From the NCBI GenBank assembly GCA_009778385.1, contig WRJX01000104.1, positions 1 through 64,000 of the forward strand: a stretch of DNA of 64,000 nucleotides, read 5' to 3'. This DNA is from Candidatus Bathycorpusculum sp. (GTDB taxonomy: Archaea; Thermoproteota; Bathyarchaeia; Bathyarchaeales; Bathycorpusculaceae). The position numbers and the translations under genes are program-made. Each line of letters begins with the position of its first letter. The stretch's first letter is position 1. This document shows, in pieces, positions 44,681-51,524 of this stretch. A model generated the notes under the pieces. That model was not told where the DNA came from and made no database searches. It saw nothing but the letters and a program-made list of their open reading frames with translations.

Positions 44681-45178
44681 ATGAAGAGTTCTAAGCATGT
44701 TGAAAAGTTGTTTAGTGTGTTATATGTTGGTACGATATTTGTCTCTCTTGGTGTCATCTACCTTATTCATTTGCCAAATAATCTTTTCAGTGAGTTAATA
44801 GATTTTTTTAATCGCTTAACCCTTGCACGGGTACCTAATACAGGAGCATTTTTGCCTGCACCGATTTCGCCTGCGGTCCATGTTGACTTATACACTGCAT
44901 TGTTTCAGTTCTTTCTAGTTATCTCTATAATGGAAGCAATAATTTTAGCACTTAGGTTCGTGTTTAATTCATCTATTAAACGTAAAGCAGAAACAATTTC
45001 CAACGTTGTTTTTTGGTTTGGTGTAAGTTACCTGATATGGACTTATCTTGTAGATTCAGCTACCATTAACAAGTGGTTTGTTTTCTGGATAGGCATTATA
45101 GTAATTTTTGGTTTATCTTTAATTGCTCGAGTTTTTGTATTGCTTGCGGTAAGGCAGCCTGAGCCTGTTAAAAATTAG
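44681..45178 (+). CDS. Membrane protein with four helices
   Basis: A 165-residue protein with four hydrophobic segments: 10-29 (VLYVGTIFVSLGVIYLIHL), 69-92 (LYTALFQFFLVISIMEAIILALRF), 104-122 and 130-155 (WFVFWIGIIVIFGLSLIARVFVLLAV). The loop between the first two is long (VPNTGAFLPAPISPAVHVD) and may be extracellular. No known family. Its stop overlaps that of the convergent glycosyltransferase gene. Confidence 0.6.
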   Translation: MKSSKHVEKLFSVLYVGTIFVSLGVIYLIHLPNNLFSELIDFFNRLTLARVPNTGAFLPAPISPAVHVDLYTALFQFFLVISIMEAIILALRFVFNSSIKRKAETISNVVFWFGVSYLIWTYLVDSATINKWFVFWIGIIVIFGLSLIARVFVLLAVRQPEPVKN

Positions 45179-45933
45179 AAAGTTAAGTGCATCCATAAGA
45201 CAAGAACTTGCATACCCATGTCAAGAGAGTCTTTGAAGAGTTTAACTTTGGTTTCTCGTGTACTGTTCCATTCAACAGGGATTTCTTTAACCTTGTACCC
45301 TTTACGTTGAGCTCGAACAAGAGTTTCAGTATCCCAGAACCAATGGTTAGCTTTAACTTCATCAAGTAAGGGTAATAATATTTCACGCTGAAACGCTTTA
45401 AATCCACATTGATGATCCTTAACTTTAGACCCGAGAATTAAACGAACCATAAAATTGTATGTTTTAGAAACGAAACCACGTGTAAATGTACGTTTAGCTT
45501 TGCTTTGAGAAAGCATTCTTGAACCAGTAGCTAACGGATAACCTTCAACTGTGACTGCGTTAATTAGCTGACTTAAATGTTTGAGGTCAGTTGCCAAGTC
45601 TACATCCATATAGATTAAAACGTTACCATTTGACTCTTTAAACGAATTCTTTAATGCTCGGCCACGACCAAGCCGTTTTTCGCCATGTATGTGACGGACA
45701 TATGGTAGTTTTTGTGCTATCTCGGCAGCTTTTTTATCTGTGCCATCTGTGCTGCCGTCTTCAGCTATTATTATTTCGTAGGTGCAACCATAGGTTTGGA
45801 GTGCTTGGCTGACTGTTGTTATTGTCTGCTCAATTATGTCTGCTTCGTTTATAGCGGGAAACACAACTGTAACGTCTAGTTGCATATCCTTGTTTGGGTT
45901 TTGCGTTTTTAGAACACCCATTGGTTGAACCAT
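45175..45933 (-). CDS. Dolichyl-phosphate sugar transferase (GT2, DPM1-like)
   Basis: Family 2 glycosyltransferase that would load a sugar from a nucleotide donor onto dolichyl phosphate at the inner membrane face. 252 residues: VTVVFPAINEADIIEQTI, AEDGSTDGTDKKA, the acidic metal motif YMDVDLATDL, and GFKAFQREILLPLL with WFWDTETLVRAQRKGYKVKEIPVEW. There is no membrane tail beyond a short hydrophobic end. It overlaps the PMT gene by 25 nt; together they would supply and use the dolichyl-sugar. Confidence 0.85.
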   Translation of the reverse strand: MVQPMGVLKTQNPNKDMQLDVTVVFPAINEADIIEQTITTVSQALQTYGCTYEIIIAEDGSTDGTDKKAAEIAQKLPYVRHIHGEKRLGRGRALKNSFKESNGNVLIYMDVDLATDLKHLSQLINAVTVEGYPLATGSRMLSQSKAKRTFTRGFVSKTYNFMVRLILGSKVKDHQCGFKAFQREILLPLLDEVKANHWFWDTETLVRAQRKGYKVKEIPVEWNSTRETKVKLFKDSLDMGMQVLVLWMHLTF

Positions 45934-47663
45934 CTTAAACTTTCACTTACCGCAGTTGATACGGGGGTACCTGAGATCACGGGATAAAACAGCACAAATA
46001 GTGCAACTACTGCTATGAAGTAGACTATTGCTGCAATTTTCATCCATTTGTATTTCCAGTACTTGCTAATAAAATACGCTGACCCAAGGCAGATAATTGG
46101 CACATTAACATAGTAATGATAAATGAATAAACCTCGGCTCACAAAAGCGTATGGTAACCATTGAGCAAAGAAGAGGACAACAAGAAACGCTGCTGGAGCC
46201 TCAATTTTTGGCATTTGGCGCTTCTTAAGTTCAGTAGCAACCTTGAAAATAGTAAGTCCTGTGATGGCTATGATTGCGGCAAAACCTATCCACCAGACTG
46301 CAGGGTTACCAAACAGGCTAATTGTTGATCGCATGTCTGCGGGCAAAGAGTTAACGTAAAGCCATAGGGGTTTTCCGATTATGGGCCAACTCCAGCCAGG
46401 TGAAGAGTATGGATGATCAAGACCTATGGGGGCAGCATGATATGAGTACATAGCGTTAGGAAGTTCAACTACACCGGCAAGTGTTCTGCCTGCAAGCATA
46501 TCGGGAATGTAAATTGCAAAGTAAATGCCTATGGCTATAATGATGAAAGATAAAATGTAAGCATATGGGTGATCAAAAAAGTTGTAGAGTTTAGTTGAAA
46601 GCGTACTTTTGCTTCTTACTACTTCTGAGAGTCGCATTATCGCCAAAATGGCTAACTGGCCTAAGAAACCGAAAAGTACCAGCCATTTAGTGGAAAAACC
46701 AAAAGTGAATAACAAAAATGAAAGAAACAACGGTACAACACTTGCGTTTTTCCAGCCTTTCTTTATTACGTTACTTAAGTAGATAAAGAAAAACAGTTGA
46801 GAGAATAGCGAGAAAAACACGACATACGTGTCTACAATGCCTAAACGGGCCTCTGAGAAATGCATAAAATCAAAAGTTAACAAGAAAGCCGCTGAAAAGC
46901 CTCCGATATAGGAGCCAAACATTTTTTTGCCTAACAGGAAAATTATAGGTACCATTAGAGTTCCAAAGATTACGCCCATTATGCGCCAGCCAAATGGGTT
47001 TAACCCAAAAGCGGCAATGCCTGCTGAAATGATAAGTTTACCCAATGGAGGATGAGTCCATTCGTATGGCCATTGTAAATTCAGGTATTGTGCAGCTGTT
47101 CTTGTGAAGTATATTTCGTCAAACATTGTTTCAGTCATGTAAGTGTTAGGCAACACAACAAGGGTTTGTTCATCAATCAACAAATTGAAATCTATGCTAG
47201 TGTTGTTTTCACTGGTGATTGAAGTGATGGGTATTATTTTGTTGTCTTGGTCAAGAACAGCTACTTCGTTAATTTCAATATTTGCCTCCGACTCAAACTC
47301 GAAACGAATGTATTGGGTTGTTCCGTAAATGTTAATGATTTTCCAATTCATGTAAGCATACGGGAAACTTGCATTAATTGAGCCACGTTCAAACCAGTTA
47401 TCAGGTTGACCAGTGTAAATTTTTATCAGGTTAGTACCTTGACAGTCTTTTATGTAAAAATAGATGTTACTAACATCCATAGAGTCTTTGAGGTCTATTA
47501 TTGCTGCCTGTGGAGTGTCAGTATTTACTGTTAAGCTGTTTGAGGGCACTTGTGTTGCGCCCAAGTTTGTTACAGCAATAGAGAAGAAGATTAAGGATAG
47601 CAAAACCATTGTTATGATGTCTTTTTTGTCTATGTTTAAATCGAAGTCAAAGTTGTATTTCAC
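45909..47663 (-). CDS. PMT-family dolichyl-phosphate-dependent glycosyltransferase
   Basis: GT-C glycosyltransferase like protein O-mannosyltransferase, 584 residues with about 12 hydrophobic segments. After a first helix (VLLSLIFFSIAVTNLG) there is a soluble domain of about 140 residues (residues 35-170) that looks like an exported beta-sandwich. The PMT core follows: DEIYFTRTAAQYLNLQWPYEWTHPPLGKLI carries the acidic motif and the HPP loop, then FGWRIMGVIFGTLMVPIIFLLGKKMFGS. The donor would be a dolichyl-phosphate sugar. It overlaps both its neighbours (17 and 25 nt). Confidence 0.85.
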   Translation of the reverse strand: MKYNFDFDLNIDKKDIITMVLLSLIFFSIAVTNLGATQVPSNSLTVNTDTPQAAIIDLKDSMDVSNIYFYIKDCQGTNLIKIYTGQPDNWFERGSINASFPYAYMNWKIINIYGTTQYIRFEFESEANIEINEVAVLDQDNKIIPITSITSENNTSIDFNLLIDEQTLVVLPNTYMTETMFDEIYFTRTAAQYLNLQWPYEWTHPPLGKLIISAGIAAFGLNPFGWRIMGVIFGTLMVPIIFLLGKKMFGSYIGGFSAAFLLTFDFMHFSEARLGIVDTYVVFFSLFSQLFFFIYLSNVIKKGWKNASVVPLFLSFLLFTFGFSTKWLVLFGFLGQLAILAIMRLSEVVRSKSTLSTKLYNFFDHPYAYILSFIIIAIGIYFAIYIPDMLAGRTLAGVVELPNAMYSYHAAPIGLDHPYSSPGWSWPIIGKPLWLYVNSLPADMRSTISLFGNPAVWWIGFAAIIAITGLTIFKVATELKKRQMPKIEAPAAFLVVLFFAQWLPYAFVSRGLFIYHYYVNVPIICLGSAYFISKYWKYKWMKIAAIVYFIAVVALFVLFYPVISGTPVSTAVSESLRWFNQWVF

Positions 47664-48948
47664 TTAGTATTCGCTCCTCTTTTGGTTGGTTGACTGATGA
47701 TGATAACTGTTCAGTTTTAAGCACTGCTTTACCTCTAAGTTCAGTCCACAATAACCAAGAACCGTATAAAAACATAGCCACGTTGATAACGCCGATGATT
47801 ATAACTATGGGATCCCCAGAAAGATTGGGACCATAATTATAGCCAGCGTTAACATAGAGGTTTAGCCAGTACAAGACATAAGCAATGTTTGTCAGGAAGG
47901 TTGCTGTGATAATACCGTAAAACAGTCGGGCTTTTTTAACAAACGGCACCATTAGGGCTAAAATGCTAATAACAGGAAACAGGTATCGTTCATGAATTCG
48001 TGTGGGTAACATAAAAAATGCGAAGAGCATCATGAATGCTGCAAAGAAGATAAGCATTTGATCAGAGTGTCCCCACCGCTTATTTAGAACATACAAGGTA
48101 AACATTGAAAAGACCGCAAATAAGGCCCATCCCACGATGAACATGTTACCATCTGGAACCCACATGCCATGTATACCCCACATGTTGAACGCATTTATGG
48201 ATGTGTAAGCGTATCCACTGTACGCGCCAAAGTAGATGTCTGTAAGGAAAGTTATTGGATTACTCCATTGCATGGGTAAAATAACAGCGAAAATTGTTAG
48301 CGTAAATGTGGCAACAGAGAATAAGAAGCGTTTAATACCGCTTTTCTTGAAAATTATAAACGCGACCAAAGGTAGCAATGCTATAGCCTGAGGTTTAGTT
48401 AAAATGCTAACAGCAAAACTTGCCGCTGAAAGTTCAGGTTTACTTTTTAATGCAAGAATCAAAGAAAGCAACATGAATAATGTGTAAATGGCGTCAAATT
48501 GTCCCCAGACTGCAGCGTTAAAGATTACTGCGGGGTTAAAAACATAAAGTGCAGATGCTATAAGGCCTAGTTTGAAGCCGAGTTGTTTTTGAACAAAACT
48601 GTAAATCACTCCGGCGATTAGCATGTCAAAGATGTTTGGAACTAACTTTACAATGTAGGTGGCAAGAGGCGTTACAGATGCTCCTGAGGCGTGGGATAAA
48701 GAGCCGAACACCCAGAAAATGTAAACGTTAAAGGGCGGATAGTCAATCCATCCGGCATGTTGTAACACATATGCATAGAAAGGACGGATACCCTGTGTTG
48801 CGGCAGTGTCAAACCAGTACTGGTAGGTGGCCATGTCGTTTGGGTAGCCTTGAAATGAAAACAGCAAAACACGAATTATAAAAGCCACACCAAGCATGCT
48901 GACTAAGATTGACATTTTCTGCTTATCAAACTGCAAAGTAAACGCCAC
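47647..48948 (-). CDS. GT-C family integral membrane glycosyltransferase
   Basis: A 433-residue protein with about 10 membrane segments. Typical of GT-C enzymes are the early acidic region NDMATYQYWFDTAATQGIRPFYAYV and the HAGWIDYPPFNVYIFWVFG loop, then AAVWGQFDAIYTLFMLLSLIL and HERYLFPVISILALMVPF. This resembles mannosyltransferase/DUF2029-like enzymes. From a GTG start it leads a three-gene unit with PMT and the DPM1-like gene. The C-terminal tail is charged and cytosolic. Confidence 0.75.
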   Translation of the reverse strand: MAFTLQFDKQKMSILVSMLGVAFIIRVLLFSFQGYPNDMATYQYWFDTAATQGIRPFYAYVLQHAGWIDYPPFNVYIFWVFGSLSHASGASVTPLATYIVKLVPNIFDMLIAGVIYSFVQKQLGFKLGLIASALYVFNPAVIFNAAVWGQFDAIYTLFMLLSLILALKSKPELSAASFAVSILTKPQAIALLPLVAFIIFKKSGIKRFLFSVATFTLTIFAVILPMQWSNPITFLTDIYFGAYSGYAYTSINAFNMWGIHGMWVPDGNMFIVGWALFAVFSMFTLYVLNKRWGHSDQMLIFFAAFMMLFAFFMLPTRIHERYLFPVISILALMVPFVKKARLFYGIITATFLTNIAYVLYWLNLYVNAGYNYGPNLSGDPIVIIIGVINVAMFLYGSWLLWTELRGKAVLKTEQLSSSVNQPKEERILSEIQL

Positions 48949-49309: not shown

Positions 49310-50566
49310 GTGCAGTTGGAAAAATGGATGGCTGTTAAAGAGAAAAATCGGCTCATCGTTTTCGATATTGAAGGAGTTCTAATTCAAAAAAATATGTTCT
49401 TTTTTCAAGTGGGCAAAACACTTGGCTTCTTTACTTTAATGAAAATTCTAGTATATGGATTTCTCTATGAAATCGGCGTTTTTCCTCTTGACGTTTCACT
49501 AAAGTGCATTTTTAAAAAACTAAAAGGGCAAAAAATAGAAACTTTGCAAGGCGTTTTTGATCAAATTCCAGCCACTCCAAGGCCGCAAAACTTTTTTGCA
49601 CAGATAAAAGAGAGAAATTACCGTGTAGCTCTGATTAGTTCAGGTTTACCTACAGTTATTGTTAAACGTTTAGCAGAGTGTTTAGGTGCTGACTATGCGT
49701 ACGGTATTGATGTTTGCGTTAACGCCTCTGGTGAGGTAACTGGAGAAATTAACGGTGAAGCCATTGAAGCTAACGGTAAAATGAAAATTCTACAAAAAAT
49801 ATTGGCTAATGAGGGCTTAACTTTACGCGATTGCACAGTAATTGCTGATGATCGAAATAACCGTTGCATTTACACTGCTGAAACTAAAAAAATTGGCTAT
49901 AACCCCGACTTTATCATCCGAATAAAGTCAGACCATGTTGTAATGGGAAAACTTGCAAGTATCTTACCAATTTTAGACAACAAAAAAGTTAAGCGGTCTT
50001 TTCCATCAACTAACGATTTTGTCCGAGAAGACATCCACGCAGCAGGCTTCTTTATGCCTGTAATAGCCCGATTAATCGGCGTTCTTCCAGTAGCCATTTT
50101 CATCAGTGTGTTATCAATTATCTATTTAATATCTGAAATTGCACGACTATACGGTAAAAATTTGCCCCTTATCTCAGCAATAACGCGCCATGCTGCTTCA
50201 CAGTCAGAACTTCACGGTTTTGCTGCTGCACCTCTGTTCTACGCATTAGGAATCCTACTTACTTTGCTGATTTTTCCTTTTCCAGTAAGCGCCGTGGCAA
50301 TCGCCGTCTTTGCATTAGGCGACAGCACAGCCTCAATCTTTGGAGGTTTACTCGGTATAAGATTACCGTTCAATAAAGGCAAAACTTTAGAGGGCTCACT
50401 TTCAGGTTTTATTTTCGCTTTTTTGGCAGGCAGCTTGTTTGTTGCACCCTGGATTGCAGCAGTAGCAGCAGCAATTGCCATGTTTGTTGAATACTTACCA
50501 TTACCAATAAACGACAACATTTTAATTCCAATAGTAACAGCCACAGCGTTAATGCTACTAATTTAA
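49310..50566 (+). CDS. HAD phosphatase fused to a dolichol-kinase-like membrane domain
   Basis: A 418-residue two-domain protein. Residues 15-225 are a SerB-like HAD domain: motif I FDIEGVLI (DxE rather than DxD, as in enolase-phosphatase), motif II ALISSGLP, the lysine in NGKMKILQK, motif IV VIADDRNN. Residues 245-418 are a membrane domain with the CTP-dependent dolichol kinase / CDP-alcohol signature FALGDSTASIFGGLLGIRLPFNKGKTLEGSLSGF. It faces the dolichol-dependent GT operon. A phosphatase joined to a kinase on the same lipid suggests dolichol (pyro)phosphate recycling. The start could be GTG 49310 or ATG 49328. Confidence 0.8.
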   Translation: MQLEKWMAVKEKNRLIVFDIEGVLIQKNMFFFQVGKTLGFFTLMKILVYGFLYEIGVFPLDVSLKCIFKKLKGQKIETLQGVFDQIPATPRPQNFFAQIKERNYRVALISSGLPTVIVKRLAECLGADYAYGIDVCVNASGEVTGEINGEAIEANGKMKILQKILANEGLTLRDCTVIADDRNNRCIYTAETKKIGYNPDFIIRIKSDHVVMGKLASILPILDNKKVKRSFPSTNDFVREDIHAAGFFMPVIARLIGVLPVAIFISVLSIIYLISEIARLYGKNLPLISAITRHAASQSELHGFAAAPLFYALGILLTLLIFPFPVSAVAIAVFALGDSTASIFGGLLGIRLPFNKGKTLEGSLSGFIFAFLAGSLFVAPWIAAVAAAIAMFVEYLPLPINDNILIPIVTATALMLLI

Positions 50567-50586: not shown

Positions 50587-50841
50587 TTATTTTTTAATTT
50601 TAGAATCTATTAAAACCTGTTTTTGCTGATGACTTAACTTTTTAATTTCACGCTCACGCCTCATTGCCAAACTACGAGAATCGTATTCCTCAAAATAAAC
50701 CAAATTTTGTGGTTTATGAGCTTTAGTGTATCTAGCCCCTCTACCGATTTGATGTAAGCGTACTCTTGATACCATATCTTTTGTGTAACCTGTATAGAAG
50801 CTTCCATCGCAACACAACAATATGTAAACGTAAAACACCAA
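50587..50841 (-). CDS. GIY-YIG nuclease family protein
   Basis: An 84-residue minimal GIY-YIG domain (UPF0213-like): YVYILLCCDGSFYTGYTKDMVSRVRLHQIGRGARYTKAHKPQNLVYFEEYDSRSLAMRREREIKKL. The Y-x-Y/Y-x-G pair, the conserved arginine in VSRVRLH and the glutamate in AMRREREIK are present. Stand-alone GIY-YIG proteins may act in DNA repair. It ends on the minus strand 8 nt after the next gene upstream, so the two are likely co-transcribed. Confidence 0.9.
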   Translation of the reverse strand: MVFYVYILLCCDGSFYTGYTKDMVSRVRLHQIGRGARYTKAHKPQNLVYFEEYDSRSLAMRREREIKKLSHQQKQVLIDSKIKK

Positions 50842-50849
50842 CGCTTAAT

Positions 50850-51524
50850 TTACTGCTCCTCTGGAGGCATGTACTCAAAAGTGATGCCTTTTTGTATTGC
50901 CCTTTTTAAATAAGCTTCTGGATCAATCTCTTGAACAGTCAACTTGTCAACATCAATAATTTGAATTTCATGAAGACGCGCATTACGAATTTCATCAACC
51001 GTAACTGGCGGCTTATGATAGTAAACATCTACTAGACGCTTAACTTTAGCGATCTCTTCATCAGTTCTGTTACGCGGAGACTTAGCAAGGGTCAGAGGAA
51101 AAGGCAAAATGTAATGCGGTGGAACACCCAGCGCGAATTTTCCAGCAAAACTACTGTAACGGATAATTTTGCTTGCTAACCGAGCAGAAGTATAAGTCAT
51201 AGGTGCCAACGCATTTTCAGGTGGGATAAATCCTGTTTCAATTTCAACTATAAGATTACCAAACCCTTTAGTAGCAAACAAGTCACATGTAAGTAGCTCA
51301 TTTAAGGAATATTCAAGTTGCACATCATAGTCCCTTTGGATTAAATATTTAGCACAGACAAGCTCCATAACAGAATGATTAATTTTTACAACATTTTCTT
51401 TTTGAAGCTTAATCAACCAATCTTTTAAACCAGTAATTTTAGTTATAGTAGACTTAGGCGCATTAATTGTAAGTTTTGAGAGTAAATTTAAAATATCAGC
51501 CTCAAACTTTTGCCTGCCACTCAT
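50850..51524 (-). CDS. Hypothetical protein with a possible PD-(D/E)XK nuclease fold
   Basis: A 224-residue protein. The N-terminus (residues 1-50) is a helical DNA-binding-like segment (LLSKLTINAPKSTITKITGLKDWLIKL). Residues 60-90 hold LVCAKYLIQRDYDVQLEYSLNELLTCDLFATKGFGNLIVEIETG, which has the spaced D...ExE pattern of PD-(D/E)XK nucleases. Later regions include KFALGVPPHYILPFPLTL and a C-terminal EIQIIDVDKLTVQEIDPEAYLKRA. It precedes the GIY-YIG gene by 8 nt. Function inferred only from fold-like pattern. Confidence 0.55.
   Translation of the reverse strand: MSGRQKFEADILNLLSKLTINAPKSTITKITGLKDWLIKLQKENVVKINHSVMELVCAKYLIQRDYDVQLEYSLNELLTCDLFATKGFGNLIVEIETGFIPPENALAPMTYTSARLASKIIRYSSFAGKFALGVPPHYILPFPLTLAKSPRNRTDEEIAKVKRLVDVYYHKPPVTVDEIRNARLHEIQIIDVDKLTVQEIDPEAYLKRAIQKGITFEYMPPEEQ

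Follow-up and report, generated by a model that had tools for sequence, protein, structure and literature searches.

The locus examined here lies in a 64,000-nucleotide stretch of a Candidatus Bathycorpusculum sp. contig, hereafter the window. Its central feature is a plus-strand ORF of 418 aa that opens at a GTG codon (49310-50566). The encoded protein joins an N-terminal HAD-IB domain (residues ~11-222; 49340..49975), delimited by motifs, profiles and an AlphaFold model, to a C-terminal membrane domain of the SEC59/DGK1/VTE5-type CTP-dependent lipid kinases (residues 230-418; 49997..50563). As the initial annotation had described, genes for a GT-C membrane glycosyltransferase, a PMT protein and a DPM1-like protein lie divergently beside the fusion gene on the minus strand. 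The first is GT87-like (47647..48948), with a score of 22.9 bits, below the Pfam cut-off of 25; the second encodes a PMT-family protein O-mannosyltransferase-like protein (45909..47663; PF16192, 1.6e-24; PF02366, 6e-10); and the third encodes a GT2 polyprenyl-phosphate hexose synthase-like protein (45175..45933; PF00535, 1e-25). A 165-aa membrane protein encoded on the plus strand (44681..45178) accompanies this operon in relatives. On the other side of the fusion, the minus strand encodes a 224-aa protein with no Pfam family (50850..51524). In family f1, no other gene follows the fusion as often, and among all its neighbours none is better conserved, except in the nearest Bathycorpusculum relatives. 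Just downstream of the fusion, the window also holds a small GIY-YIG nuclease ORF of 84 aa on the minus strand (50587-50841; PF01541, 1e-15), whose homologues hold the same position in many relatives.

The fusion more likely starts at the in-frame ATG at 49328 (49328..50566) than at the GTG at 49310. Relatives start to align at about residues 6-12, and the ATG is preferred because several near relatives carry TAG stops upstream of the conserved region. Readthrough of these in-frame TAG codons was considered and rejected: they are confined to the extra N-terminal stretch and vanish once the match starts in the conserved region, near residue 9-10, so that they probably lie upstream of the true start.

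The N-terminal domain matched the Pfam HAD family PF12710 (E=2.4e-8) and the NCBIfam HAD-IB model TIGR01488 (1.7e-12; 47.7 bits, above the cut-off of 45); its match to the SerB-like model TIGR00338 (5.4e-22) stayed under that model's cut-off of 144. Among solved structures, the family profile matched the phosphoserine phosphatase of MJ best (1f5s, E=3e-33), and the best Foldseek matches to the AlphaFold model of the domain (pLDDT 86) were also phosphoserine phosphatases (E~2e-11, TM to target 0.85-0.9). The fused HAD shares with SerB (1f5s) the fold, the cap type and motifs I-III, which read D19-I-E21-G, S110-S-G-x-P114 and K157, respectively. The DxE motif I named in the initial annotation is exact, in place of the DxD of SerB, and D19, E21, S110 and K157 are invariant in 41/41 homologues. 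Motif IV, A-D180-D181-R-N-N184, is of a DxNN form and departs from the expected DD or GDxxxD classes, given that N184 replaces the usual second Asp in all 41 sequences. D181 is present in 40/41 homologues and D180 in 39/41, with Arg in the near Bathycorpusculum copies L051 and L052; in the Asgard copy, the D180 position is Asn (SN-D). Because the second Asp is replaced and D180 itself is variable, D181 is the likely metal ligand; with this atypical motif IV, catalytic activity of the domain is probable but not assured.

In the MJ enzyme, Glu20 and Arg56 are the serine-binding residues. They align with N28, a position that is never Glu in the fused HADs, and with I67, which is aliphatic in 41/41; the stand-alone DxE HADs of Nitrososphaeria retain the Arg at the Arg56 position. 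In addition, the HADs of the fusions group together in the tree, separately from the stand-alone HADs (98% support). The loss of the serine-binding residues, together with this separate clustering, argues for a changed HAD substrate that is not phosphoserine. As a separate observation, the Nitrososphaeria-type stand-alone SerB-like HADs at L148, L149, L150 and L199 have the motif I DVEG (DxE rather than DxD) and keep the serine-binding Arg. A search of the 98%-complete genome to which the window belongs (G000) found no stand-alone SerB-type phosphoserine phosphatase; two candidates were inspected and set aside, one being a cation-transport P-type ATPase and the other a DxD HAD.

The C-terminal domain is helical throughout, with ~7 predicted membrane helices. 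In the window protein, it matches no Pfam family above cut-off, PF01864 and PF01148 included; a stand-alone relative (L164) matches CTP_transf_1 (PF01148) with 31.9 bits, the cut-off being 24. When its predicted fold was compared with the whole PDB, CdsA (4q2e/4q2g) ranked first to third and CarS (5guf) sixth, all of them weak matches (E 0.17-0.98, prob 0.72-0.89). Neither the PDB sequences, queried with the profile of the kinase, nor a plasmid collection, searched for an annotated kinase relative, gave a match. The domain carries SEC59/prenol-kinase-type motifs (R239-E-x-I-H243, S-E276-x-x-R279, E300, G-D338, N355-K-G-K-x-x-E361-G, E394-x-L-P and N-D402-N403-x-x-I-P407). The motifs of the kinase family (the R-x-x-x-H clamp, E..R, GD, N/K..K.LEG and (D)DN..IP) are invariant across the 41 fusion homologues and are also present in stand-alone homologues, and the C-terminal INDNILIPI-type motif is common to the fusion and to stand-alone SEC59-like proteins. 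For the assayed prenol kinase PfPolK, a charged clamp formed by Arg29/Lys30/His33 has been modelled (PMC10849223); R239 and H243 (R-x-x-x-H) match Arg29 and His33, and a Glu stands where PfPolK has Lys. The whole C-domain thus resembles the SEC59 proteins and their archaeal counterparts of arCOG01881 (COG0170), annotated as dolichol kinases (PMC5898192), in its SEC59-type motifs and perhaps, as the weak fold matches suggest, in a CTP-transferase fold. It differs from them in bearing the N-terminal HAD; elsewhere in the phylum, the kinase is mostly a stand-alone protein of ~190-215 aa.

The initial annotation had assigned this membrane domain to the polyprenol-kinase type and had weighed a CDP-archaeol-type enzyme against it. 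The same genome encodes a separate CarS (C101, E=1.5e-43), so CDP-archaeol synthesis is already covered, and a CDP-archaeol synthase identity is unlikely for the C-domain; this CarS and the shared INDNILIPI-type motif favour the SEC59 type and leave the kinase half of that counter-reading disfavoured. A DUF92/VTE6-like identity was also ruled out, as PF01940 (DUF92) is absent from the genome. The genome does encode a cis-prenyltransferase and STT3, which implies that a polyprenyl-phosphate economy exists.

Near-full-length fusions were found in 85/151 genomes of the order, a count that leaves out five fusions cut by contig ends and four HAD-only matches. The relatives that carry a name are Bathyarchaeota, several Candidatus Bathycorpusculum among them, and the Asgard archaeon Ca. 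Borrarchaeum weybense (L140); two genomes of another Thermoproteota family (L161 and L189) also carry the fusion. Because near-full-length copies recur in the order, in a second Thermoproteota family and in Asgard, an assembly accident is dismissed: the joining of the two domains in one protein, as first read from the window, is real and ancient. A split-gene test showed that the closest stand-alone kinases (G175, G190 and G479) have no fused-type HAD nearby or elsewhere in their genomes. In trees of the three fusion lineages, the HAD domains cluster and the kinase domains do not, with weak support.

A second type of kinase-phosphatase chain occurs in other Thermoproteota families (f22 and f31), where the same SEC59-type kinase domain is followed by a C-terminal PAP2 domain (minus strand: L165:7993-9087, L166:9500-10546 and L170:7778-8983; plus strand: L191:3574-4620). 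The PAP2 parts matched PF01569 with E-values of 1.3e-19, 2.6e-9 and 4.2e-11, and these proteins form their own clade in the kinase tree (support 97). PAP2 enzymes include C55-PP phosphatases (PMC4641660). The kinase-PAP2 proteins share with the HAD fusion the kinase domain and a lipid-type phosphatase in one chain; nevertheless, their PAP2 is C-terminal and membrane-embedded, in contrast to the N-terminal soluble HAD, and the two architectures are not orthologous. Kinase and phosphatase were thus brought into one chain at least twice. Since one kinase appears to have been joined to two unrelated phosphatase folds, an on/off function on a lipid phosphate is supported. This two-fold joining argues more strongly than any other finding that selection has favoured joint phosphatase and kinase action on a lipid, and the independent kinase-PAP2 fusion is the strongest, albeit indirect, new evidence for a lipid kinase/phosphatase; it reinforces the general idea of the initial annotation that a lipid's kinase and phosphatase are combined. 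The parts of these proteins are already known. The HAD-SEC59 and SEC59-PAP2 fusions themselves are apparently undescribed: the open literature that we searched, which leaves most subscription papers outside, contained no description of either, in agreement with the earlier remark that the exact pairing had no established description.

The link between the fusion and glycosylation is partial. Within f1, the divergent GT87/PMT/GT2 arrangement recurs down to ~51% fusion identity (L051, L052, L078, L067, L068 and L098-L102), and the fusion and PMT genes lie within 15 kb of each other in 13 of the 38 PMT-bearing f1 genomes in which both genes could be placed. The f1 fusion and PMT co-occur both among genomes (39/5 vs 12/23, Fisher p=8e-7) and at the genus level (9/0 vs 7/12, p=0.003), neither value being corrected for ancestry. 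In families f6, f7 and f9, by contrast, the GT87/PMT/GT2 linkage is absent and the fusion adjoins unrelated housekeeping genes, mostly in genomes without PMT; in f6 and f7, the fusion occurs almost always without PMT. The neighbours outside f1 include PhoU-TrkA, a KaiC-like ATPase, class I tRNA synthetases and a PP-loop tRNA-thiolation-type protein. Conversely, the oligosaccharyltransferase STT3/AglB is common in genomes without the fusion. Since the fusion occurs without PMT and STT3 occurs without the fusion, neither O-mannosylation nor N-glycosylation obligately involves this protein, and the proposal that it is dedicated to the adjacent GT/PMT operon is not supported as it stands, the linkage being confined to f1.

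Our leading, still tentative, reading is that the fusion is a bifunctional membrane-anchored isoprenoid-lipid kinase/phosphatase that would most likely set the polyprenyl/dolichyl-phosphate pool. The C-domain would use CTP to phosphorylate a long-chain isoprenoid alcohol (polyprenol or dolichol), much as SEC59 and PolK/VTE5 act on their alcohols. The HAD, at the cytosolic face of the membrane, would dephosphorylate an isoprenoid lipid phosphate drawn from that same pool through an Asp19 phosphoenzyme, with Glu21 as the acid/base, and both domains together would set the phosphorylated share of the carrier. Two modes can be envisaged: Dol-PP or polyprenyl-PP would enter and Dol-P leave, or the protein would act as a reversible Dol/Dol-P switch. 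A phosphatase and a kinase acting on the same substrate would run a futile cycle, unless they were regulated or their substrates differed. We infer that both domains are catalytically active, that CTP is the donor and that the kinase substrate is an isoprenoid; the assignment of an isoprenoid lipid phosphate to the HAD is the least certain, and the initial annotation's picture of recycling spent carrier or a CMP-linked product within one protein is likewise hypothetical.

Several known systems bear on this carrier-lipid reading. CTP is the phosphate donor of dolichol kinases, which can help to reactivate and recycle the carrier (PMC11542857). That HAD domains within fusion enzymes can act on prenyl (di)phosphates is established for the drimenol synthases, in which a HAD phosphatase acting on a prenyl diphosphate is fused to an isoprenoid enzyme (PMC9128629), although there the partner is a soluble terpene cyclase and the HAD belongs to another subgroup. 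The Methanosarcina SEC59-DUF92 protein Mbar_A3310 is another archaeal fusion, in which a SEC59-like domain is joined to a further enzyme presumed to act on isoprenoid lipids (PMC5898192); its second domain has a cytidylyltransferase fold and is no phosphatase, and DUF92 is missing from the genome studied here.

With somewhat less assurance, we suggest that Thermoproteota and Asgard may control the phosphorylation of the glycosyl carrier lipid (or archaeol) by single-chain kinase/phosphatases, built at least twice from a SEC59-type kinase plus HAD or PAP2, and that the HAD may found a lipid-acting DxNN subfamily, a candidate dolichyl/polyprenyl phosphatase. To our knowledge, archaea have no known enzyme for dephosphorylating dolichyl/polyprenyl phosphates. 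The making, recycling and regulation of archaeal dolichyl phosphate are only partly known: the annotation of a dolichol kinase rests on homology, and few of the phosphatase steps have an assigned enzyme. With its kinase-PAP2 counterpart, the conserved kinase-phosphatase fusion supplies concrete candidates, and a single protein, which may both add and remove phosphate on an isoprenoid lipid, e.g., the carrier for protein glycosylation, is enough to put the question to the test.

Since the lipid is not fixed by the sequence data, the principal rival is a Pah1-Dgk1-like archaeol/archaetidate switch, which we regard as unlikely. The kinase would phosphorylate archaeol or digeranylgeranylglycerol in a Dgk1-like manner, and the HAD would dephosphorylate archaetidate or the phosphate of an archaetidyl headgroup. 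The enzyme classes pair as in yeast Dgk1, which is related to SEC59, and the lipin Pah1, which is of the HAD type. In that system, Dgk1 is a CTP-dependent DAG kinase that counteracts the PA phosphatase Pah1 and sets the PA/DAG balance (PMC3790011), but the two are separate eukaryotic proteins with glycerolipid substrates, unlike the single archaeal chain. The phosphatase of the phosphatidyl/archaetidyl-inositol-phosphate step has been described as unidentified (PMC9385802), which leaves phosphatase slots open, and a distribution independent of PMT suits a general membrane-lipid role. Nevertheless, the precursors of archaetidate derive from glycerol-1-phosphate and thus carry their phosphate from the outset, so that the kinase would be needed only for salvage; the f1 linkage and co-occurrence favour a glycosyl-carrier role; and no CarS or CDP-alcohol transferase was seen near the fusion gene. 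If the substrate were archaeol, the protein would instead represent a lipin/Dgk1-like membrane switch in archaea.

A salvage kinase for geranylgeraniol- or farnesol-type prenols (VTE5/FOLK/PolK-like), with a HAD that hydrolyses prenyl mono-/diphosphates and so controls short-chain isoprenoid levels, is rather improbable. The kinase family does include VTE5, FOLK and PolK, which use C15-C20 alcohols (PMC10849223), and C15 terpenoid diphosphates are among the substrates that HAD domains hydrolyse (PMC9128629); however, the genome has no DUF92 (VTE6-like) partner to finish the conversion of GGOH to GGPP, and the f1 genome context consists of dolichol-phosphate users. We give a still lower probability to a divergent or regulatory HAD, either inactive or a sensor of soluble phosphate, in a protein that would then be simply a dolichol kinase whose N-terminal domain is specific to the lineage. 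Eukaryotic dolichol kinases bear such domains, which have been proposed to be regulatory (PMC11542857), and the motif IV deviations, including the Arg and Asn substitutions at D180, are compatible with this. On the other hand, the nucleophile, acid/base, Ser and Lys residues are 100% conserved over 41 sequences, whereas some of them should have been lost in a pseudo-enzyme, and the independent PAP2 fusion points to phosphatase chemistry. Finally, a phosphoserine phosphatase, or another phosphatase of soluble sugar or amino-acid phosphates, fused by historical accident is highly improbable: its best sequence and structure matches and the missing stand-alone SerB-type HAD speak for it, but N28 and I67 replace residues of which stand-alone Nitrososphaeria DxE HADs keep the Arg, and the fused HADs stand in a separate clade.

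A radical-SAM/SPASM gene that is not found beside the fusion in the window is conserved upstream of it in 13 relatives. In many f1 genomes, a radical-SAM/SPASM enzyme belongs to a three-gene set with a zinc-ribbon membrane protein and a DUF2207-like protein (L055:5584-8902, plus strand, and homologues); the set, absent in the window, lies directly upstream of the fusion and is co-directional with it.
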